IMG/VR virus record: IMGVR_UViG_3300021137_000060
Location: 1 to 30,858 of that record
Strand: one strand, 5' to 3'
DNA from: a virus
DNA length: 30,858 bases
Within the stretch, counting starts at the first letter, position 1; each line of letters begins with the position of its first letter. Positions 2,445-27,672 of this stretch are shown in pieces. Below the pieces are notes generated by a model that worked only from the letters and a program-made list of their open reading frames with translations, ran no database searches and had not been told where the DNA came from. Both the position numbers and the translations under genes were made by a program.

Positions 2445-2780
2445 ATGGGATTTGAACCTAAGATTTACACAGAGTTTAATGACATGTGGTTTGACAAGCA
2501 TGATGGTGACAAGAATAACGGTAGCAATGTTTTTGTTGATGGTTTGCCGGTTTTCGGTTTTTTCATGTGCATACCTTTTAGAGCTTTTTATTTGAAAAAC
2601 GGTTCATGGCGATGCGGACAACCAATAGTCACTATTAGTGAAGAAGCTGTTGAAGCTTATAATGCCTGTAAAGAGTGTGAAGAAAGGACTAGAGCGAAAG
2701 CTTTTGATGAAAGAAAAGTTGTACCAATCAACATCAAAAGTCTTGAATCGTGGTCTGATGAAGATTTGCTAGGTAGATAA
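2445..2780 (+). CDS. Hypothetical protein
   Basis: A 111-residue protein without a family I recognise. The open frame extends back to 2337, but that part covers the hairpins and promoter; the ATG at 2445 follows a good CGGAG. A Phe/aromatic-rich middle (VFGFFMCIPFRAFYLKNGSWRCG) precedes a helical acidic tail containing a C-x2-C pair. The start (MGFEPKIY) resembles that of the first gene in the window. Confidence 0.65.
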   Translation: MGFEPKIYTEFNDMWFDKHDGDKNNGSNVFVDGLPVFGFFMCIPFRAFYLKNGSWRCGQPIVTISEEAVEAYNACKECEERTRAKAFDERKVVPINIKSLESWSDEDLLGR

Positions 2781-2827
2781 AACTATTGCCATGGACGGCT
2801 TTTTTAATTTAATGAAATAGGTGATAT

Positions 2828-3220
2828 ATGAAATCGTTATCAATAGTGATGGGTGCAGTTGACAAAAGATGTAGACACTGGAATAAAATTGTCAGAAAAA
2901 ACGATGATATTCCAATGCCGGATAAAGTGACATCTAGCAAGAATATTCCTACTGAATATTTGCAAGATGGATGCGAAGAATTGTTTGAAGGCGATTTTTG
3001 GCTTGAAGGTGAAGAAAAGCACCACCGGAATCCAAGAGGTTGGTGCTATAAAATACACTGGATGGATAGTGAAGGTAAATTGAAATCTGTTAAGCCTGGT
3101 GGAGAAGTTAAAGCTAGACTTAAAGAAGCTGGATTGCATTTTGAATTCTTACCTGGTAGTGGTGAAGTAGCTGCAATGGTAAGAATTATACATGCTTATA
3201 GACAGGGTATCGAATTGTAA
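2828..3220 (+). CDS. Hypothetical protein
   Basis: A 130-residue protein of unknown function. The RBS AGGTGA precedes the ATG. The protein is rich in Trp, His and charged residues (EGEEKHHRNPRGWCYKIHW) and ends with a predicted helix (EVAAMVRIIHAYRQG). It is the last gene of the left rightward block and is followed by a clear terminator. Probably cotranscribed with the gene at 2445, which ends 47 bases upstream. Confidence 0.65.
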   Translation: MKSLSIVMGAVDKRCRHWNKIVRKNDDIPMPDKVTSSKNIPTEYLQDGCEELFEGDFWLEGEEKHHRNPRGWCYKIHWMDSEGKLKSVKPGGEVKARLKEAGLHFEFLPGSGEVAAMVRIIHAYRQGIEL

Positions 3221-5458: not shown

Positions 5459-5860
5459 TTATTTTCTCAAGTAAAATTTTTGTCTCTCAGCATTTATCTT
5501 ATCAATTTTTACTTCTTTATTGATTAAAAGATTTTCCATTTCAACTTCATCAAACATTTTTAATCTGCCAACTTTTCTTGCAGGATTTAATCCAAATTTG
5601 TGAATTAACTGACAAATGTATGTTTCAGAAAGAGAAAATTTGTCGCTGGCTTGTTTAATTGATAACATTCCCTCGACATTTTTTTCATACATTGACATTA
5701 CTTTTTTGATGGTTTCTTCATCATATTCAAAAATGGTGTAATTTTTCTTAACGATAGACCGTGCAGGTTGAATATCTAGCTTTCTGATGCGTTGATAAAC
5801 GATATGATACTTAATTCCGTATTTGGCAGAAAAATCTCTTATATTAATAATAGCCATCAA
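5459..5860 (-). CDS. Putative DNA-binding protein with two HTH-like segments
   Basis: A 133-residue protein. Two segments have helix-turn-helix character: about residues 5-35 (IRDFSAKYGIKYHIVYQRI) and about 66-100 (LSIKQASDKFSLSETYICQ). Both resemble MerR/excisionase-type winged helices, each followed by a reading like PAR. It overlaps the end of the primase gene by 4 bases. I infer a transcription or replication regulator. Confidence 0.6.
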   Translation of the reverse strand: MMAIINIRDFSAKYGIKYHIVYQRIRKLDIQPARSIVKKNYTIFEYDEETIKKVMSMYEKNVEGMLSIKQASDKFSLSETYICQLIHKFGLNPARKVGRLKMFDEVEMENLLINKEVKIDKINAERQKFYLRK

Positions 5861-8067
5861 AAAATCTCCATATATAGGTATTCTGGCAACTGGCTATTTT
5901 CAAATAAATTAGCTGCTTCATTCTTAGCATAAAGCATAACATTCTTACCATTTATTTTCCATCGACCATCTTTAATGCCGTATTTTCTCATTACTTTATA
6001 TCCACAGCGTGACATTGCTGCTGCTAATCTAGGTCGTATGCTTTCGATTTTAACGTCACCAAGTCTAAGGCACTCCGCTATAATTTCATCAGCTCTAACA
6101 TAATCTTTACCATCAAATTTCTCAAGAGCATCCAACAACCAACTATCAGTTTGCATTGAAGAAGCGACCACCATAGCGTGAGCCTCTGTCTTGCGTTGCC
6201 CTGTACTCGCGTTGAACTTGCTTATGTCTCTTTCATTAAGAAAGGCTGCAACATGATTCATGCCACCATCATAAAACCATTCCCAAAGTTCTGTGAAATA
6301 CTTTTTCTTTTCTTCTTCATCAGCCAATCCCATTTCTTGAATAGAAGCTGAATCAATAACATCATACCTTCTATCATCTGATGGAATATATATACCACTA
6401 GCAAGGTGGTTTGTTGTAACGATTACACCACAATACATTTTTATGTCATACTTTTGACCATACTTAGGATTAATCATAAGGTCATCAGGATTACCGGCAA
6501 TTAACACTTTTGTCTTTTCATTAAATGCCCATTTAGTCATCTCATGCAAATTGGCTGCTTCTGATATTCTTACTAGCGTTGAAGCTGAGTATTCATTAAA
6601 TGAGCTTTCTAAACTAGCAGGTTCGATATTGCTTATATTCCAGCCACCGATAGCTGGAACGCAAAATTCAACGGCAGTGTCTTTACCAACACCTTGTGAA
6701 CCTGCTATCAGTATTGCGAATCTCGGCTTTTCCCATGGCTTTTGAACTCTATGTGCCATGTAGTCTAAGAATTGATTAGCATCACCAATCTTGTTAAATA
6801 CTTTGTTGACATGGTTTACAAATGGTTTGGCTAAAGAACTGTCACCCAAATGTATTGTAGATTTTCGATATGAGTTGTAAACAGCACCACCGGATGATTC
6901 AAATATTTCACCGTTGGAACAGTCGTGGTCTTTTACATAATCTTCATCTAAAGCAGGGTTTTTAGTCATGCTAGTAGCCAGCATATTTTGCTTTAACCAC
7001 TCGCTTGCTGAAATAATTTTTCCATCAGAATTAACTGGTGAAACTGCTGCATCCACAGCCGTACCTATCCATTGTGTAAATGTTGGTCTATAGATAAACA
7101 CATTTCCTGGTGCATAATAGACGAATCTATCAATTGGAACTTCACCTTGTAATGGAGCCCAACCATTGTCAGTAGCAAGTTTAACAATAGTTCCAATGCT
7201 TAGTTCAGACTTATCCTGCTTTTTACTAATATCATAAAAAGCTTCGTTCATTATGTCATTATGATTTCGACCTTTTTTACCATCCCATTTATCAGACCAA
7301 TCACAATAGACTTGAAACGCATCATCAGACTGCTTAAATTCACGACCAAGAATTATACCAACATTACGCCATAAATCTCTATCATCTGATGGTATAAATT
7401 CAAGCATCCTAGCGACTTGCTCAATAGTCCATCGCTTGCCTTTCTTTCTGTTTTCTCCACCAGCTGGTCTGCCACGCCCATCTTTTCTAACTGATAAATG
7501 AGCTGGTAAAAATGCTAAACCATTTATACCTAGTTCGATTATTCTTTCCCAGTTATTCCAGCTATAAACTCCACCACTACGATGTAAACTTGGTGGTGCT
7601 ACTATATAACCTTTATCATTCCGACAATCAACGCCTTTACCAAGTGTGTTACTGCTAGTTTTTAATGATGAACTGTATTTGAATACAAAGTGTATTCCAC
7701 CACCACCAGTTGACGCTGATAATGTATCTGGTTCACCACTTTCATCACAAAGTTGTTGCCAAGTTTCAGCACCTAACTTTCCATTACCAATATCAATATC
7801 AAGAATAGTAATGCCAGAAAGTTCACCAGTAACTAAGCCTATATTTGCAAGACCGGCAAATTCACCATCTTTAGAAAACCACTTTTCAATTTGTGATAAA
7901 TCTCTGCTTGCTGCTTTTAATCCTCGACCAATTCTAGGATGTTTACCAGCATCAGAACAAGTATCATTTCCACAAGTGCAAATACCATTGTTCATAGTAT
8001 GCAAAGGGAAAACATACCAACCTAAATTCACATAATCTTTTGCCCAATCAACTATCTCTTTAATCAT
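5857..8067 (-). CDS. Bifunctional primase-polymerase / SF3-like helicase
   Basis: A 736-residue replication protein from the ATG at 8067; a GTG four codons upstream is possible. The N-terminal AEP (prim-pol) domain shows the catalytic DID (about 90-92, in LDIDIGNG) and GGGIHF (about 122-127). A Cys cluster near residues 30-37 (CTCGNDTC) may bind zinc. A PriCT-2-like segment follows at about 213-285. The C-terminal ATPase has Walker A GSQGVGKDT (about 456-464) and a later VIVTTNHL sensor-like motif, as in DUF5906/SF3-type primase-helicases. It would open the origin and prime the phage polymerase. A 30-base gap and a long hairpin separate it from the gene at 8181. Confidence 0.9.
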   Translation of the reverse strand: MIKEIVDWAKDYVNLGWYVFPLHTMNNGICTCGNDTCSDAGKHPRIGRGLKAASRDLSQIEKWFSKDGEFAGLANIGLVTGELSGITILDIDIGNGKLGAETWQQLCDESGEPDTLSASTGGGGIHFVFKYSSSLKTSSNTLGKGVDCRNDKGYIVAPPSLHRSGGVYSWNNWERIIELGINGLAFLPAHLSVRKDGRGRPAGGENRKKGKRWTIEQVARMLEFIPSDDRDLWRNVGIILGREFKQSDDAFQVYCDWSDKWDGKKGRNHNDIMNEAFYDISKKQDKSELSIGTIVKLATDNGWAPLQGEVPIDRFVYYAPGNVFIYRPTFTQWIGTAVDAAVSPVNSDGKIISASEWLKQNMLATSMTKNPALDEDYVKDHDCSNGEIFESSGGAVYNSYRKSTIHLGDSSLAKPFVNHVNKVFNKIGDANQFLDYMAHRVQKPWEKPRFAILIAGSQGVGKDTAVEFCVPAIGGWNISNIEPASLESSFNEYSASTLVRISEAANLHEMTKWAFNEKTKVLIAGNPDDLMINPKYGQKYDIKMYCGVIVTTNHLASGIYIPSDDRRYDVIDSASIQEMGLADEEEKKKYFTELWEWFYDGGMNHVAAFLNERDISKFNASTGQRKTEAHAMVVASSMQTDSWLLDALEKFDGKDYVRADEIIAECLRLGDVKIESIRPRLAAAMSRCGYKVMRKYGIKDGRWKINGKNVMLYAKNEAANLFENSQLPEYLYMEIF

Positions 8068-8097
8068 AAATAAACTCACAAATAAAACAGCTATAAA

Positions 8098-8169
8098 TTA
8101 GCTACACGGAACAAAAATTTAAAAGCAATATGTTGTTATTACAAAAACATTTTTGTGTCGTGTAGCTAA
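8098..8169. repeat. Long imperfect inverted repeat before the primase gene
   Basis: TTAGCTACACG (8098-8108) pairs with CGTGTAGCTAA (8159-8169). After a G-T pair and one mismatch, ACAAAAA (8111-8117) pairs with TTTTTGT (8150-8156), leaving a 32-base loop. It lies in the leader of the primase-helicase transcript and could be an operator, an RNA control element or a processing site. Confidence 0.6.
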
Positions 8170-9377: not shown

Positions 9378-9881
9378 TTATTTTATTGTGGCAATATTTA
9401 CCACTTTTGCACCGAAAAGTTCCAAATCTAAATCTGGATTGCCTTTCTTGATTTGTTCTTTCAAAAAAGACTTCATCGTTTGAACATGCACTCCTTCTTG
9501 GAAGCCAATGTTATTAAGACCAGAAGCATTTAACTTGTTTACAAGTTCAAGCGCGTCCTCTCTTTCACCTTTGCCAAATTCAACGGATACAGTGGTTTTA
9601 ATCAATCCACCAAAACCTTTTTCATTTAACCAAGCATAGCACAATGGCTTTTTGTCGTTTGGTATTTGGGAATAAACATCTTGTTTCAATGACATTTTTT
9701 TGCCATTTTCTAAAGTCAAATCCTTAACGCCTAATTCCTGCATAACAGCAGGAATTGTCTCTTCAGATAACAAGCGTTGTTTTTCAACAGCTTCTTCAAG
9801 AGCAGCTTTTGCAATCTTAACATTTAAGACCGCAGCATCTAGGCATCTAGCCAATTCAGAAACATCATCAAGCGTAATCAT
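9378..9881 (-). CDS. Conserved phage hypothetical protein (replication operon)
   Basis: A 167-residue protein. An N-terminal coiled coil (about 10-45) leads into TIPAVMQELGVKDLTLENG. A central beta segment contains WLNEKGFGGLIKTTVSVEFGKG, and the end reads VHVQTMKSFLKEQIKKG then LFGAKVVNIATIK. This arrangement recurs in phage proteins next to recombination or single-strand-binding genes, but no function can be named. The ATG overlaps the upstream stop by 4 bases, so the three genes from 10222 to 8468 form one operon. Confidence 0.6.
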   Translation of the reverse strand: MITLDDVSELARCLDAAVLNVKIAKAALEEAVEKQRLLSEETIPAVMQELGVKDLTLENGKKMSLKQDVYSQIPNDKKPLCYAWLNEKGFGGLIKTTVSVEFGKGEREDALELVNKLNASGLNNIGFQEGVHVQTMKSFLKEQIKKGNPDLDLELFGAKVVNIATIK

Positions 9882-10222
9882 ATAACCACCTTACTGTTTA
9901 AATAGCGACCAAGATTTTTATCCCATTTCAGGACATTAAAATGACCATACCTTTTGCCTAGAATCGCTAGGACTGTTGACGTTATAAACATATCGCCCAT
10001 AGGCAATATGTAATCCACTTCTGGATTAAAACTTTTCAGTTTTTCATAGCATTGTTCACTAAGTTCTTTACTCATATGAAAAGCTGAACGTGGTGGGAAC
10101 ATCTCAATGATTTCTCCAAATTCAGTTGCAGTTCCTATGTTCACTGTTGGAACAAAGGCAACAGAACCATCACCAGACTTTTTCCTAGAGTGCGGTATTT
10201 GTGTCACATATACCTTTTTCAT
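9878..10222 (-). CDS. Conserved phage hypothetical protein
   Basis: A 114-residue protein, first gene of the leftward replication operon. It reads MKKVYVTQIPHSRKK and later EFGEIIEMFPPRSAFHMS and DYILPMGDMFITSTVLAILGK. I know this type from phage replication regions but not its function. GGAG precedes the ATG, and the gene carries a short version of the TTCAACTTA leader. Confidence 0.65.
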   Translation of the reverse strand: MKKVYVTQIPHSRKKSGDGSVAFVPTVNIGTATEFGEIIEMFPPRSAFHMSKELSEQCYEKLKSFNPEVDYILPMGDMFITSTVLAILGKRYGHFNVLKWDKNLGRYLNSKVVI

Positions 10223-10291
10223 TGTTTCTCCTTTAAGTTGAATTAATCAGCAAAAGCCAATCAGCAGCACGACGCTACAGAAATAATTATA
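10223..10291 (-). promoter_or_regulatory. Leftward promoter, 5' hairpin and TTCAACTTA leader (copy 5)
   Basis: On the minus strand the -10 TATAAT is at 10291-10286; no good -35 was found. A hairpin begins 8 bases later: GTAGC (10278-10274) pairs with GCTGC (10268-10264), with one G-T pair around a 5-base loop. TTCAACTTAAA is at 10242-10232 and GGAG follows. This drives the replication operon away from the repeat region. Confidence 0.65.
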
Positions 10292-10640
10292 CTCGCATAA
10301 ATTAAAAAAATAAAGTTAATTTTACACGTTATTTAAAAATAAATTATCTATATATAACACGGATTAATCAAGCTTAAAAATAGCACTTAAACACTTATTT
10401 TTTAATTTGTAATACATTTGTATTACGTCCGTGTCCGTGTTCGTCCGTGTTATATATAACCAAGAATCAAGTTAAATAAAATAATGTAAAATAATACAGG
10501 TTATTTAATATAGTTATATAAGCGTTATATAAGTAACACGGTTCAACACGGACTCGACAAATTCCGTGCTATTTTATCAACAAAAAACAAGTACAAAATA
10601 ATAAAAATAATCTTTACTTTTAAAATAAAAAACAGGAAAA
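10292..10640. other. Candidate replication origin or operator array: CACGG boxes and inverted repeat
   Basis: No gene is visible in the 460 bases between the divergent genes. Seven CACGG/CCGTG boxes occur: forward at 10357-10363, 10536-10541 and 10546-10552; reverse at 10428-10434, 10434-10440, 10444-10450 and 10563-10568. A perfect 15-bp inverted repeat joins TATATATAACACGGA (10349-10363) to its complement at 10444-10458. GTTATATAAG is repeated in tandem at 10513-10522 and 10524-10533 (11-bp period, about one helix turn). The rest is almost pure A/T. Iterated boxes beside an easily melted tract, between divergent replication operons, suggest an origin; a repressor or activator array is the alternative. 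Confidence 0.6.
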
Positions 10641-10677
10641 TATAAACCGCTATTAAATTATTCAACTCAAAAAGGAA
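10641..10677 (+). promoter_or_regulatory. Rightward promoter with partial TTCAACT leader (copy 6)
   Basis: A TATAAA -10 candidate is at 10641-10646. TTCAACT at 10661-10667 is followed by an AAGGA RBS and the ATG at 10685. No clear -35 or hairpin was found. Confidence 0.4.
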
Positions 10678-10684
10678 AAATAAA

Positions 10685-10921
10685 ATGCCAGATTTTATAG
10701 GTCGTTTCTACGTCACAAATGGGCGTATTTCTGACAAAAACAGTTGTGGTAAAATTTCAGATTTTAATGATGCTATTTTTGCAGGTAGCTATAATGAGTG
10801 CATTGATTTCTGTAAAAGTCACGACCACTGTTATGATGAAAAAAACCAATTCTGTTTGCACGTTGCCAGTAAAGCCAGCAACAGGATTGCTTATCAACAC
10901 AACTGCCAAATGGTAAGGTAG
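10685..10921 (+). CDS. Small Cys-rich hypothetical protein
   Basis: A 78-residue protein with six Cys and several His (DFCKSHDHCYDEKNQFC). It could be disulfide-bonded or metal-binding, but no family is recognised. AAGGA lies before the ATG. It is the first gene of the rightward block, 6 bases ahead of the FAD oxidoreductase gene. Confidence 0.6.
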   Translation: MPDFIGRFYVTNGRISDKNSCGKISDFNDAIFAGSYNECIDFCKSHDHCYDEKNQFCLHVASKASNRIAYQHNCQMVR

Positions 10922-16953: not shown

Positions 16954-16963
16954 GGAGAAAACA

Positions 16964-17506
16964 ATGTTATTATCACATAATAGATTAGTTGAGCTTGTTG
17001 AAGCTGGCGTTATTAATGCAGAAAAAGAAAATATAAATGGTTCTAGCATAGATATAACACTGCACAAAACTGTTATGGTCGAATGGTTAGACCAAGAAAA
17101 TCAATTCATTGATTTAAGCAAAAAGCAAAATATCCGCATGTTAAAGCAAAATATCGGTGAAAATGGATTCATGTTAAATCCAGACCAATTCATTCTTGCT
17201 TGTTCAAATGAAATTTTTAATTTGCCAAATAATATCAGCGCAGAGTATAAGCTTAAAAGTTCGATGGCTAGAAATGGCTTAGAACATCTTAACGCTGGTT
17301 GGTGCGATGCCGGTTGGACAGGAAGTCGATTAACACTTGAATTAAAAAATATGACTCAAGAACATACTTTAATTCTCAAAGAAGGAATGAAAATTGGTCA
17401 AGTTTTATTTTTTGAACATGAACATGTACCGGATGATTTTAGTTATGCAATAAAAGGACGGTACAATGAACAACGCGAAGTAACAGCAAGTAAAGGCATT
17501 AAATAA
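16964..17506 (+). CDS. dcd: dCTP deaminase
   Basis: A 180-residue enzyme that would convert dCTP to dUTP and ammonia. Family motifs are NGSSIDITLH (26-34), KSSMARNGLEHLNAGW (98-113), WTGSRLTLELKN with the catalytic Glu at about 126, and GRYNEQREVTASKG near the end, matching the nucleotide-binding tail of Dcd. A strong AGGAG precedes the ATG. No dUTPase is visible in the window, so it may come from elsewhere in the genome or the host, or this may be a bifunctional form. Downstream, dUMP would feed ThyX. Confidence 0.93.
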   Translation: MLLSHNRLVELVEAGVINAEKENINGSSIDITLHKTVMVEWLDQENQFIDLSKKQNIRMLKQNIGENGFMLNPDQFILACSNEIFNLPNNISAEYKLKSSMARNGLEHLNAGWCDAGWTGSRLTLELKNMTQEHTLILKEGMKIGQVLFFEHEHVPDDFSYAIKGRYNEQREVTASKGIK

Positions 17507-22873: not shown

Positions 22874-25800
22874 GCATTAGCAATCATAGAGTATTTTATA
22901 GAGCCAGCAGCAGCAGCTCCAGCAACAATCATTTTTAATGCTAATATTGAACCGGCTGCTTGTTGTGGTATTGAATAAGAACCTGTTAATGGTATTGTTG
23001 CTTGAGCTGTACTTCCAGATAATGAACCGTATGTCCAACCAGTAGATGTAAATGTTAAAACATTGCCTAATAAAGTTGCGTTGTTTATTATCTGGAATGA
23101 TATTGTATTTGAACCTGTTGGCAAAGAAAACAGCTCAACAGACAACATCACTATAGTAGCAGCCATAGGCATTAAGTAAGCCGTGGCATTAATACCAGTT
23201 TGTGTGCCATTGCAGCCAACATAATAAGTTCCAGTGGCTGGCGCACCTACAGTACAACCGAACATTGGTAAAGTTATTCCATATCCATTTACTGTTGGAT
23301 TATCATTATAAAGAATTTTTAAAGAATCTTTAATGATTACTCCGCTAGCTCCATTTCCAATCTTATAAGCATTTAAACCATAATTTGGATTTCCTGTATC
23401 TTTAAATGGATATGAACATTCCCATAATCCATTTTGTACTAAGCTCGGTATTTTAACATCAACATTTGTACATTTATTACCAATATAAAAAGGTTCAACA
23501 AGCGTCATAGCTTGCATACAATTAACTCGTATTGTTACCTGTTGAACATCGTTATTGTCTGGAATATTAACGTGGTAATGGTTGGTATAATTAGCTGAGC
23601 CATATCCATTGTCATTATCTAATATTTGAATGTTATTAGATTTTTGATTGTAATATCCAACTAAATTATTAGTTGTTGATGATATTGTTGATAAATAAGA
23701 ATGGCTTAATGTATAAGCTCCAGTATTTCCTCTACCAGTTGTATATCCTGTTATTGTTACTGTTGGTGATGTTAGATTGCCTGAGCCTGTTAATGAACCT
23801 GATAATTGATAAGTAGCACCAGCAGCGCCTAAAACTCCAGATAGTAATGTGGTTACATAAACTTCTGATGGACTTGATGAAGATGAATACGATACTGGCG
23901 CGCCTATATAAACAGCACCTTGACCATTTAATGATGAGACAGTTAAAACATTAGTTGAATTGTTTATTGAAAATGAACCACTATTTAGTGTAAATCCACC
24001 ATAATAGTTTGAATCATTACCACCAATAGCTTCACCAAGCTTTACAACGTCAGTTGTATTCTGCAAAGCATTGACAGTTAATACATTTCCAGTGATACTC
24101 CAATTAGTTGCAGTAAATCTTTCAACAACAGTTTTAATCAAGCAGTCATTGGTATTATTAACAACAGAGCCAATTCCAGATAAATTTGTTCCAAATGTTC
24201 CGGTAACAGTTAAACCAGTTAATGATGTTGGATATGGAGTTTTATATTCTTGACTTAAATTCCATTTATTAGTTCCAGCAGAGCTTACAATATAAGTATT
24301 TTTTATTGAACCTGAAAAAGATATTTTTGTTCCAATTAAAAATTGACCAGATGTGACAGTTCCAACAGTTAAAACATTGCCAGAAATACTGCATCCAGTA
24401 GCGACATTAGAAGGCATAGTACCAACAACAGAACCAGTAAGAGTTCCATAAGACTTACCATTTAAAGTAAATGTTGTTGCACTTGTTTTTGCTGTTATAA
24501 ATGTTGTGGAATCAAGACCAGCTAATCCACTTAATTGCATACCTACACAAAATGGGCTTCCAGTTCCTATTGGTATAGCAGTTCCAGTTCCTATTCCAGC
24601 TCCAGTCGCTGTAAAAGTAGCGCCAACAGCATTAACAACAGCACCAGGAAAGCAAGGTAATACAGAGCCATTTCCAGTGCCAACTCCAGTTGCAGTAAAT
24701 ATAGTTCCAATATTATTATTAGGCGCACCAATAGACATGAAGTTAGTCGAGCCTAAAGTTACAATCTGATAATTGTTTCCTGCTGATATACTTGTTGGTG
24801 CTATTGCGCTGCTTAATGTCGCTATTTGATAAACTTGACCATTTGTTAAGCTTCCAGCAGCAACAGGAGTTGGCAAAGTTAAAGTATTGCCACTAACAGT
24901 ACAGCCAGAATAAGAAGCTGACATCGACTGAGATTGAGTTACAGAATAAGTGCCTTGACCGCCTATTTTAGCGATTGTTGATTGATTATTTACTTGTGTT
25001 AATTGAGCTGTGATATTTGTTGTTAAAACTCCGTCACCATATATATACATTGTTGTGTCAATGTTATAATTGCCAGAAGCATCAAGATAACCTAAAGAAC
25101 CATTAAAAATGCCATCAACAGTTAAAGTCGTGCCATTAATTGAACAATTGGTCGCTGTAAAACTTGTAAATTGTGTTATTGGCTGTCTATATTGAAGAAC
25201 GCTGCTTATTTTTACAGCACCAGCTCCAGATATATAAGCAGAAGCATAATTAGAATTAATATGTCCACCAATAAAATCGTAACCACCACCACGACTAGAA
25301 GCACCACGCCACCCGTAAATTCCAATGTCAGAGCCAACTGCATTACATCTAAGAAATTTTGTTCCTTCACAAACAGTCGTGCAAACATCAAGAACACCAA
25401 AAAATGAATTATTAGAACTTAAATCACAATCTGTAGCCCACAAACCATAGCAGTTGCTCGCATTTAAAACAGCGTCTTGCTTTGTTGTGGAATTATTACC
25501 TATTGCATTGTTTACGTTTATTAATTTTGGTTGATTTGAACCTGAAACATCAAGACTTGTATTCCAAGCGTAATAACTAGCATTTTGAACATCATGATAA
25601 GGCATTAAATTAACATCTTGCAATGTTAAAGTTCTGCTAGCACCAGGGCTATTCCACATGCCAAGTGTTTCAGTTACAGCAGGGGTATTTTGATTTAAGC
25701 TATTTATAAAGTTAAAGCTAAAACCAACGCCAGCTCCATCAATGCCAGGTGACAACCAAAGATTAATAGCTGTGACAGTACACATTGCATCGACTTGAGT

Positions 25801-27672
25801 TGAATATTGGCTTGTTGGTGTTATTACTGGGGTATCAGTTAAAGATTGATTTGAAGATTTATTATTATATATTTGAGTAAAATAAAGGTTAAATGCTCCA
25901 GTAGAATTATATCCAACAATAATTGAAGTATTTTTATCTCTACCTAATAAAACTAAATGTTGAGCTAGATTGTAAATTCCTGGTGTTTTACCAATAAATT
26001 GGTGCTGTCTTAAAACTGCTGTTACTGGAGCATATAATACATAAATTCTTGATTCAAACCAAAGCAATGCAAATTCAAAAGTAAGCGCATAATTTAACGC
26101 TCTTTGAATTGTCATATCGTCAGTATCACCTGTTTGATAATAGTCATCAACTGTAACTACTTCAAACAATTTATCCATCAAATAACGTAATTGGCTAGCA
26201 CCTTTTTGAATAAAACTCATTGCGCTTGCGCGTTGATAATTTGTATTCAATCCATCTAAATTAGCATCATAAACAACAGCACTAGAGCTGTTACCAAGTA
26301 TTGTGTTGGCAACTGAACCTAAATCAACCATAATGTCAACAGTTTTAGCAGAGCCACTTCCACTACCAATTCCTGTTGCTGTAAATGATAATCCTGGTGT
26401 GTTAGAAGTCGCACCAATAGTTCTAAAATCTGTACTTCCAATAGAAACAATTACATAAGAGCAGCCAACAACAAAACTACCAGCATTATAAGTATTTGAA
26501 TTGTTTTGGAACGTATTTGAACTAGCTATATTATTGCTTGAAGTAAATGCTAGTAATGCTGTGCCTGTGCCTGTGCCTGCACCAGTAGCTTGGAAAATTG
26601 TACCAATATTATTAGAAACAGAACCAATAGCTGTAAAATCTGTACTTCCAGAACCAGTGCTATTAACCAAATAAAATTTGCCAACAACCAAAGCAGTTGC
26701 AGCAATTGGAGTTTCATATGATGATGAAGCATTAGTGGCTAAGTGTAATCCACCACCACTATTATTTATTAATGTATTACCAGTTAAAGATAGATAAGAA
26801 CTATTGCCAGCATTGTTTTGAGTTTTTATACCAGGCGCGCCATTAGCAGTTCCAACAACAATATTACTGCTCAACGAACCACCATCAGCATCGTCAATTC
26901 CAATGCCAGCGACACCACCTAACTGACAAGCAAATGCGACTATATTGGTACTTATTACAGATTGATTAGATGGTAAATCATCTGTTATTCCTTCAGCACC
27001 AGTATAATAAGTAATGTTTCCAGTTCTAATATTATCAGGAGCAGAATTAGAAGGACATCCCACACCACCAACATTGTGACAAAAGTTATTTATTACTCTG
27101 TTATTTATACAGGTGGTTGCTTGACCATCTAAATAAATTCCATGAGCATTTGCAATTCCAGAACTTCCGTAAACTTCGCTTTTTTCTACAATATTGCCAC
27201 TTCCTTTTATGCCAATACCAGAACCACCAATATTGTTACAGTTTATCCTAATTCCAGATAATTGCCAACCAGAAGCTCCACCAGGAATTAAAAAAGCGTC
27301 AAATGGTGATGAGCCAATTTTTTTGATTAAAGCACCAGGCGACATTATCACAAATTGGCCAATTAATGATAATGTTACTGTTGATGATATTAAAAAAGTG
27401 CCTGAAAAAATACCAAATGGTATTCCACTATTAAAAGCGTTTATTAATCCAGCGGTATCGTCATTTACACCATTTCCATAAACATTTGGAAAACTTCTAA
27501 CGTCAACAAGTTGTGGATTTGATGTTTGTTGTACGATGGCTTGACTTACATAGGATGCTATGTTTTGTGGATTTACATAGGATGCTATTGTGCTAAGAAA
27601 TTGATACCATTGCGGTGAAATTAAATTCTCAGCATTGTCAATTGGTATACTTTGATTAGGTAATAAAGCCAT
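22870..27672 (-). CDS. Tailspike/tail fibre protein with pectate-lyase-like N-terminal part
   Basis: A 1600-residue virion protein. After a short N-terminal region (MALLPNQSIPIDNAENLISPQWYQFLS), residues 55-95 (VRSFPNVYGNGVNDDTAGLINAF) match the opening of pectate-lyase-3-type beta-helices, and strand repeats continue (NNIGGSGIGIKGSG, GIYLDGQATTC). Two long low-complexity regions contain modules of the type GSTDFTAIGS...NNIGTIFQATGAGTGTG. A second set of modules reads SGNVLTV or NGTTLTV. The end (AGSILALKMIVAGAAAAG) is small-residue-rich. It probably binds or cleaves a surface glycan. The N-terminus presumably attaches to the virion. Confidence 0.8.
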   Translation of the reverse strand: MALLPNQSIPIDNAENLISPQWYQFLSTIASYVNPQNIASYVSQAIVQQTSNPQLVDVRSFPNVYGNGVNDDTAGLINAFNSGIPFGIFSGTFLISSTVTLSLIGQFVIMSPGALIKKIGSSPFDAFLIPGGASGWQLSGIRINCNNIGGSGIGIKGSGNIVEKSEVYGSSGIANAHGIYLDGQATTCINNRVINNFCHNVGGVGCPSNSAPDNIRTGNITYYTGAEGITDDLPSNQSVISTNIVAFACQLGGVAGIGIDDADGGSLSSNIVVGTANGAPGIKTQNNAGNSSYLSLTGNTLINNSGGGLHLATNASSSYETPIAATALVVGKFYLVNSTGSGSTDFTAIGSVSNNIGTIFQATGAGTGTGTALLAFTSSNNIASSNTFQNNSNTYNAGSFVVGCSYVIVSIGSTDFRTIGATSNTPGLSFTATGIGSGSGSAKTVDIMVDLGSVANTILGNSSSAVVYDANLDGLNTNYQRASAMSFIQKGASQLRYLMDKLFEVVTVDDYYQTGDTDDMTIQRALNYALTFEFALLWFESRIYVLYAPVTAVLRQHQFIGKTPGIYNLAQHLVLLGRDKNTSIIVGYNSTGAFNLYFTQIYNNKSSNQSLTDTPVITPTSQYSTQVDAMCTVTAINLWLSPGIDGAGVGFSFNFINSLNQNTPAVTETLGMWNSPGASRTLTLQDVNLMPYHDVQNASYYAWNTSLDVSGSNQPKLINVNNAIGNNSTTKQDAVLNASNCYGLWATDCDLSSNNSFFGVLDVCTTVCEGTKFLRCNAVGSDIGIYGWRGASSRGGGYDFIGGHINSNYASAYISGAGAVKISSVLQYRQPITQFTSFTATNCSINGTTLTVDGIFNGSLGYLDASGNYNIDTTMYIYGDGVLTTNITAQLTQVNNQSTIAKIGGQGTYSVTQSQSMSASYSGCTVSGNTLTLPTPVAAGSLTNGQVYQIATLSSAIAPTSISAGNNYQIVTLGSTNFMSIGAPNNNIGTIFTATGVGTGNGSVLPCFPGAVVNAVGATFTATGAGIGTGTAIPIGTGSPFCVGMQLSGLAGLDSTTFITAKTSATTFTLNGKSYGTLTGSVVGTMPSNVATGCSISGNVLTVGTVTSGQFLIGTKISFSGSIKNTYIVSSAGTNKWNLSQEYKTPYPTSLTGLTVTGTFGTNLSGIGSVVNNTNDCLIKTVVERFTATNWSITGNVLTVNALQNTTDVVKLGEAIGGNDSNYYGGFTLNSGSFSINNSTNVLTVSSLNGQGAVYIGAPVSYSSSSSPSEVYVTTLLSGVLGAAGATYQLSGSLTGSGNLTSPTVTITGYTTGRGNTGAYTLSHSYLSTISSTTNNLVGYYNQKSNNIQILDNDNGYGSANYTNHYHVNIPDNNDVQQVTIRVNCMQAMTLVEPFYIGNKCTNVDVKIPSLVQNGLWECSYPFKDTGNPNYGLNAYKIGNGASGVIIKDSLKILYNDNPTVNGYGITLPMFGCTVGAPATGTYYVGCNGTQTGINATAYLMPMAATIVMLSVELFSLPTGSNTISFQIINNATLLGNVLTFTSTGWTYGSLSGSTAQATIPLTGSYSIPQQAAGSILALKMIVAGAAAAGSIKYSMIANA
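24560..24795 (-). repeat. Tail-module repeats C and D (GTIFTATG type)
   Basis: In the tailspike frame, GSTNFMSIGAPNNNIGTIFT leads into ATGVGTGNGS, followed by a shorter copy, GATFTATGAGIGTGTA. They are related to the copies at 26338-26705. Confidence 0.65.
26338..26705 (-). repeat. Tail-module repeats A and B (GTIFQATG type)
   Basis: Two tandem-like modules in the tailspike frame: GSTDFTAIGSVSNNIGTIFQ followed by ATGAGTGTGTAL, and GSTDFRTIGATSNTPGLSFT followed by ATGIGSGSGS. Both are introduced by VVGKFYLV or VVGCSYVI. Confidence 0.7.

Follow-up and report, generated by a model that had tools for sequence, protein, structure and literature searches.

Where does a phage that encodes its own primase-helicase and DNA polymerase begin to copy its genome, and which of its proteins recognizes that site? 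The 30,858-nucleotide stretch of DNA analysed here (hereafter the window), a 30.9-kb fragment of a phage record, raises this question at one place, where two replication operons diverge. The original prediction placed a candidate origin there, a cluster of CACGG/CCGTG iterons at 10292-10640, and implied a binding protein that had not been recognized. In our analysis the origin reading is the best supported one, with its binder, extent and direct-iteron layout corrected: positions 10427-10556 would constitute a bipartite inverted-iteron replication origin that is bound, melted and primed by the phage's PrimPol and sends out diverging forks (probability roughly 0.8).

The replication genes of the window share about 40% identity with those of the PB1/Wifcevirus/BcepF1 group, and DNA polymerase III alpha, ThyX and phrog_4828 are common to the window and Lindbergviridae-like phages; the affiliation of the window rests on these shared genes. 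The leftward operon has the order gp32-gp33-gp34-g8181-PrimPol (with Pam3 gp32-, gp33- and gp34-like products), and the rightward operon continues after its first gene with a phrog_4828 flavoenzyme-like gene, ThyX, an exonuclease, DNA polymerase III alpha and a helicase. Between the two operons lies a gap of 462 bp (10223-10684), which, as predicted, is the site of divergence and the sole divergent gene junction in the window. Three genes, annotated with Pfam and PHROG, are of particular relevance:

5857-8079, minus strand: primase-helicase of 740 residues with PrimPol, PriCT-2, DUF5906 SF3 helicase and winged-helix parts (referred to as PrimPol), the proposed origin binder
9878-10222, minus strand: Pam3 gp32-like gene, the first of the leftward replication operon
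10685-10921, plus strand: first gene of the rightward operon, product without assigned function

The region had no blastn match in cultured phages and no match in Rfam and tRNA searches. A contig that overlaps the window is identical to it over 13.2 kb and therefore provides no independent evidence.

The sequence features on which the original prediction was based are present in the gap. The seven boxes lie at 10358 (+), 10429 (-), 10435 (-), 10445 (-), 10537 (+), 10547 (+) and 10564 (-). CACGG/CCGTG occurs 18 times in the whole window against 11.6 expected, the 11 copies outside the cluster being scattered in a chance-like manner, and none of 500 composition-matched shuffles of the gap contained seven copies of any 5-mer with at least three G/C; chance is excluded as the cause of the clustering. 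The perfect 15-bp inverted repeat (10349-10363 with 10444-10458) and the 11-bp tandem repeat (TTATATAAGCG TTATATAAGTA at 10514-10535) were likewise found, as was the A/T richness of the gap, which has 25% GC; of the three 80-bp stretches with the lowest GC in the window, two lie there.

The arrangement of these features differs from the one proposed. The important inverted repeat of the gap turned out to be a longer pair (10430-10458 with 10528-10556; 29 bp, 79% complementary, 69 nt between the arms) rather than the perfect 15-bp one, which is an extra outer arm in the opposite direction; one relative (L107) also has three alternating arms. Allowing up to one mismatch, AACACGG-N3-AACACGG occurs exactly twice in 30.9 kb (none expected), at 10435-10451 on the minus strand and at 10535-10551 on the plus strand, the two pairs thus being oppositely oriented, head-to-head. 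The boxes are repeated, as originally described, but they form two tandem pairs that mirror each other across an A/T core rather than simple direct iterons, and the putative functional unit of about 130 bases is narrower than the interval first reported, within which it lies. The parts of the element and its surroundings are as follows:

10349-10363, plus strand: outer arm TATATATAACACGGA, the perfect complement of 10444-10458, with an inward-facing extra box at 10358-10362
10409-10426, no strand: 18-bp palindrome GTAATACA-TT-TGTATTAC (GTAATACATTTGTATTAC) bordering the left cluster on its left side, a local hairpin on folding
10427-10452, minus strand: left box cluster with three CACGG boxes (10429-10433, 10435-10439, 10445-10449), at a position homologous in relatives
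10435-10451, minus strand: AACACGGACGAACACGG, within the left box cluster
10430-10556, no strand: whole bipartite inverted element with arms 10430-10458 and 10528-10556, from the inverted-repeat scan and the relatives' profile
10453-10534, no strand: A/T-rich core of 82 bp, about 17% GC, the proposed melting site between the inverted clusters
10514-10535, plus strand: the 11-bp tandem repeat, which holds AAGCGTTATA, a match to the AGCGT(GT)ATA motif that relatives conserve at the right edge of the core
10535-10553, plus strand: right box cluster AACACGGTTCAACACGGAC, whose two boxes are spaced 10 bp apart and run opposite to those of the left cluster
10564-10568, minus strand: seventh box, CCGTG, beyond the right cluster

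An absence of the boxes in syntenic relatives had been named as an observation that would speak against an origin, and it is literally true of the gp32/flavoenzyme gap: none of eight loci with the same gene order has a box cluster at this junction, which is shorter in them and commonly has back-to-back sigma70-like promoters. The boxes are absent from these syntenic gaps because the element changes place, and relatives that lack them there often bear the element elsewhere, usually 3' of PrimPol. For six relatives, the entire contigs were scanned for large, long-looped inverted repeats. In four of these relatives the best such repeat of the contig, or one of the two best, consisted of intergenic arms around an A/T-rich stretch. 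That of G002 lies directly 3' of PrimPol (20 of 20 positions paired, 73-nt loop, CACGGA in the arm), that of G004 separates PrimPol from a divergent gene (25 of 26 paired, 69 nt), and that of G009 is 3' of the helicase gene, with two ACACGGCC in each arm and 74 nt between. G003 has two copies, 16958-17111 and 24440-24554, which are 7.5 kb apart and have the arm core CACAAGGCAGG / ACAAGGCAGG in common.

Since a single PrimPol protein as query found no relatives, PrimPol alignments were used instead, and 49 PrimPol-relative loci were recovered. The 740 kb around them contain 24 large inverted repeats scoring at least 20, compared with one in shuffles; when an A/T-rich core of 60-95 nt is required, the numbers are 15 and zero, respectively (the set includes the window and phage BPP-1). 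In arms picked without regard to sequence, outward-pointing CACGG is present in 8 of 18 lineages against 0.43 expected (P 4e-9), and inward-pointing CACGG in none; the arms are tandem repeats with a period of 8-11 bp, about one helical turn, in 9 of 18 (0.6 expected). In uncultivated phages that encode the same type of primase-helicase, the elements consist of tandem boxes repeating every 9-10 bp, in inverted orientation on either side of an A/T-rich core, and their inner-box spacing of 76-100 bp is mostly near 8 or 9 helical turns, a range that includes the 92 bp of the window. When the relatives are aligned, a left core motif like AAAAGATTTAATTAAATA is seen, together with a right motif AGCGT(GT)ATA before the right boxes, where the window has AAGCGTTATATAAGTAACACGG. 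Judged from these alignments, the element of the window and those of its relatives are homologous. An 8-mer repeat-cluster scan of relatives missed most of these elements because it sought many copies; the inverted-repeat scan caught them.

According to the synteny table of relatives, the element is usually located 0.1-1.5 kb 3' of PrimPol, whereas in the window it is 2.35 kb away on the 5' side and not adjacent to the gene. The L123 element resembles that of the window in lying upstream of gp32. In several relatives whose flanks are long (e.g., L134, L151, and contig G008) no element was detectable, and the element may not be universal among relatives. The closest PrimPol relative, L106 (74% identity), has its element 3' of the gene, amid repeated CGCACTATT / AGTGCAGTAT-like boxes that together form a bigger array (2740-3060) than in other relatives. 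A related phage contig, L047, has at 1430-1780 a dense CGCGCGGA repeat cluster of unrelated sequence.

A blind search led to the same site. A profile of 118 positions was built from the elements of 20 relatives with the window excluded, and was based on sequence only since RNAalifold gave no consensus pairs. Its top two matches in the window were 10442-10553 (+, E 1.7e-7) and 10433-10551 (-, E 1.8e-7), the third having an E-value of 0.027. Because the E-values of the profile tool are rough, nhmmer was run as a control, and scored 18.2 bits in the window, compared with at most 7.9 in 300 composition-matched gap shuffles and 4.0 in the reversed window. At E<0.01 the profile had no match in 758 kb of other Lindbergviridae-like phages, and PrimPol-bearing contigs had strong matches at single places, except for the two in G003. 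Beyond the training set, elements were found in L100 and L108 and, more weakly, in L125 and L127; the L100 match is only partly independent, as its contig is the one behind a close relative of training row L119. By this profile match, the window element is a member of a recurring family of inverted-box elements in PrimPol phages. The blind recovery of the site, together with homologous elements near PrimPol genes in many relatives, makes the origin reading much stronger.

Which protein could recognize the boxes? Pfam and PHROG searches of ten window proteins, the window being a fragment, revealed no RepA-, RepE- or O-like initiator. PrimPol itself is the candidate. Its helicase part matches the C-terminal region of NrS-1 polymerase in sequence (E 9e-14) and in fold, and more weakly the SaPI5 primase-helicase and PriRep1. 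Its last 100 residues are predicted with good confidence to form a helix-strand-helix-helix-wing arrangement. Foldseek and VIA matches of this C-terminal domain include, weakly, the winged helices MecI, BlaI and pSSVx Stf76 (best Foldseek E 0.07); as the Foldseek matches are weak, the winged-helix call rests on the predicted topology, and the matches from both tools, which are middling, indicate no more than a winged-helix-like arrangement. The additional binder of the original prediction is not needed, since a winged helix is predicted at the C-terminus of the primase-helicase, which belongs to a class whose Rep proteins bind flanking iterons. At this locus the observations extend to the boxes and their geometry, to the homology they share with an element that recurs, usually close to this primase gene, and to the domains predicted for the protein.

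Other candidates around PrimPol were considered. HTH5459 (5459-5860, minus strand, 133 residues), which overlaps the 3' end of PrimPol and has weak HTH matches, was rejected as the binder; it has no similarity to the PrimPol C-terminus. A hairpin at 8098-8169, just upstream of the PrimPol start codon, has 21-nt arms with 19 positions paired and a 30-nt loop, and its left arm contains the CACGGA-bearing TACACGGAAC. It could be an operator for PrimPol autoregulation; as an origin it was discarded, the family profile giving no match there. Small proteins with 23-30% identity to the C-terminal winged helix of PrimPol are encoded near PrimPol in L100 (11092-11388; contig G005 51092-51388), contig G009 (29820-30053), and contig G010 (5942-6160), and are possibly copy-number regulators like Cnr of P4.

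Known origins offer several points of comparison. Those of phage-inducible chromosomal islands (PICIs, among them the SaPIs) always consist of two iteron sets flanking an A/T-rich region; one such origin replicates a plasmid with its Rep, and this layout was said to be known from no other bacterial replicon (PMC6092414). The usual place of PICI and SaPI origins is directly 3' of rep (PMC6092414, PMC7581432), and the C-terminal domain of the SaPI Rep binds iterons beside its own gene, apparently as two hexamers (PMC7581432). As in the window, two sets of short iterons flank an A/T-rich putative melting site, and the initiator, a self-loading Rep helicase with a DNA-binding C-terminus, can be likened to the window PrimPol with its predicted winged helix. 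However, PICIs are satellites, whereas the window belongs to a Lindbergviridae-like phage with its own DNA polymerase III alpha; the window has few boxes (2-3 per side), which are inverted and have a 9-10 bp period; and the position immediately 3' of the rep gene, taken by the element in most relatives, is not the one it has in the window, 5' of the primase.

A second comparison is with pRN1, whose 100-bp stem-loop (21-nt stem, 58-nt loop) is required in cis for replication, a similar one being predicted in BIP-1/BPP-1 (PMC4234260). Like the window, pRN1 and BPP-1 combine a PrimPol-SF3-winged-helix protein (the winged helix of the window being predicted) with an inverted repeat of about 100 bp and a long loop near the gene (PMC4234260). 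The window has such an inverted repeat with a long A/T-rich loop, although the gene is farther away (2.35 kb). The BPP-1 primase has the same domains as the window PrimPol, and in BPP-1 the arms at 26607-26628 and 26689-26710, 60 nt apart, each contain two GCCTCGTTT boxes; the divergent gap in which they lie is 0.5 kb away from the primase. Whereas the earlier reading for pRN1/BPP-1 was a stem-loop without iterons, the arms here are better read as inverted tandem boxes.

The closest solved helicase domain to that of the window PrimPol is from NrS-1 polymerase. In NrS-1 an 8-nt recognition sequence is found at mid-genome, one copy per strand, a suggested origin (PMC7102993); these are two single sites of different sequence, and box pairs around a core are not described. 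Iteron theta plasmid origins resemble the window in having repeated initiator sites adjoining an A/T-rich melting tract. In those origins the iterons are direct and on one side, and the Rep initiator has no primase and helicase of its own. Satellite phage P4 has two separated cis sites, ori and crr, and its alpha protein, unlike the window PrimPol, has a bacterial-type primase domain. The alpha protein is a primase-helicase whose winged helix binds origin repeats (PMC4234260). By analogy with these systems, the window element most likely works like the PICI and pRN1/BPP-1 origins; given its distance from PrimPol and the inferred nature of its function, we class it as a variant rather than a member of either.

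Several other explanations of the boxes were weighed. They might bind a phage regulator of the two divergent replication-operon promoters, as the gap is the sole divergent junction in the window, the same gap in relatives has back-to-back sigma70-like promoters, and HTH5459 with its weak HTH matches is encoded beside PrimPol. Yet L028, L059, and L087 have divergent promoters without boxes, the element in most relatives is 3' of PrimPol and apart from the divergent junction, promoter-like matches in the region are fewer than chance, and relatives of HTH5459 were not found in the ten element-bearing contigs searched (a search without a positive control). A transcriptional operator would also leave unexplained the conserved A/T-rich core between mirrored box pairs, and we regard it as quite unlikely. 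A related proposal, that initiator binding at an origin also represses the flanking promoters, the boxes at 10358 and 10564 being regulatory, is compatible with the preferred reading, so that their probabilities overlap. Such autoregulation is favored by the extra boxes beyond the core, by an outer box that falls within the spacer of a possible leftward promoter, and by the CACGGA-bearing hairpin upstream of PrimPol, while the positions of outer boxes are not conserved among relatives; we consider it a tentative possibility.

Alternatively, the folded arms themselves, as a hairpin, cruciform or RNA, might be what is recognized, an idea first put forward for pRN1. As single strands, the elements fold far better than shuffles (z -5.1 for the window, -5.5 to -9.3 for relatives and BPP-1). 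Against this, the window and several relatives have mismatches between the boxes with the boxes intact, the arms are commonly tandem repeats of one-turn period in a fixed outward orientation, and RNAalifold found no consensus pair, for which arm misalignment may be the cause. Further, binding of Cch2, a SaPI5-Rep-like helicase, was lost on deletion of direct repeats and kept on deletion of inverted repeats (PMC7581432). Recognition of a fold therefore appears unlikely. Packaging and recombination sites can have inverted repeats and A/T-rich DNA, but no terminase or integrase is adjacent, and the element tracks the PrimPol type and was undetected in related phages beyond that set, so that a role of this kind is very improbable.

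Cumulative GC skew, which had been suggested as a check, has its minimum at 10668, inside the gap. The skew at third codon positions is close to zero, both in the window's two replication arms and in G002-G004 among the relatives, and the minimum is thus an effect of gene orientation and coding that lends the origin no independent support; we discarded GC skew as origin evidence. A Pbunavirus study uses cumulative skew to the same end (PMC12390725), which should be read with equal caution.

For the bipartite origin at 10427-10556, we infer PrimPol binding, melting, priming and bidirectional forks from the systems named above. The PrimPol-SF3 primase-helicase would bind both AACACGG pairs through its C-terminal winged helix, and, because the pairs are inverted, one ring would assemble on each side, head to head. 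The SF3 motor would then melt the A/T-rich core (10453-10534), and the PrimPol domain would lay primers for two diverging forks, to be extended by the phage DNA polymerase III alpha. As the window is a fragment, a second origin could exist beyond it. It is also conceivable, at close to even odds though somewhat below, that a single widespread, mobile origin module is common to PrimPol-SF3 phages, pRN plasmids, and PICIs, in which initiator rings sit head to head on inverted box pairs flanking a core of about 8-9 helical turns. Such a module would shift position, and its boxes would change with the winged helix of the primase.

Origins of lytic phages have seldom been mapped, and the pattern described here would provide a predictive rule, in which candidate origins in many uncultivated phages are marked by tandem boxes that are inverted about an A/T core and mostly lie close to a PrimPol-SF3 gene. 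It would allow the "stem-loop" of pRN1 (known here by its published description) and BPP-1 to be reread as inverted initiator boxes, and would extend to full phages an origin layout thought to be unique to satellite islands. Together, these elements may offer naturally varied pairs of boxes and winged helices with which the co-evolution of initiators and origins could be tested.
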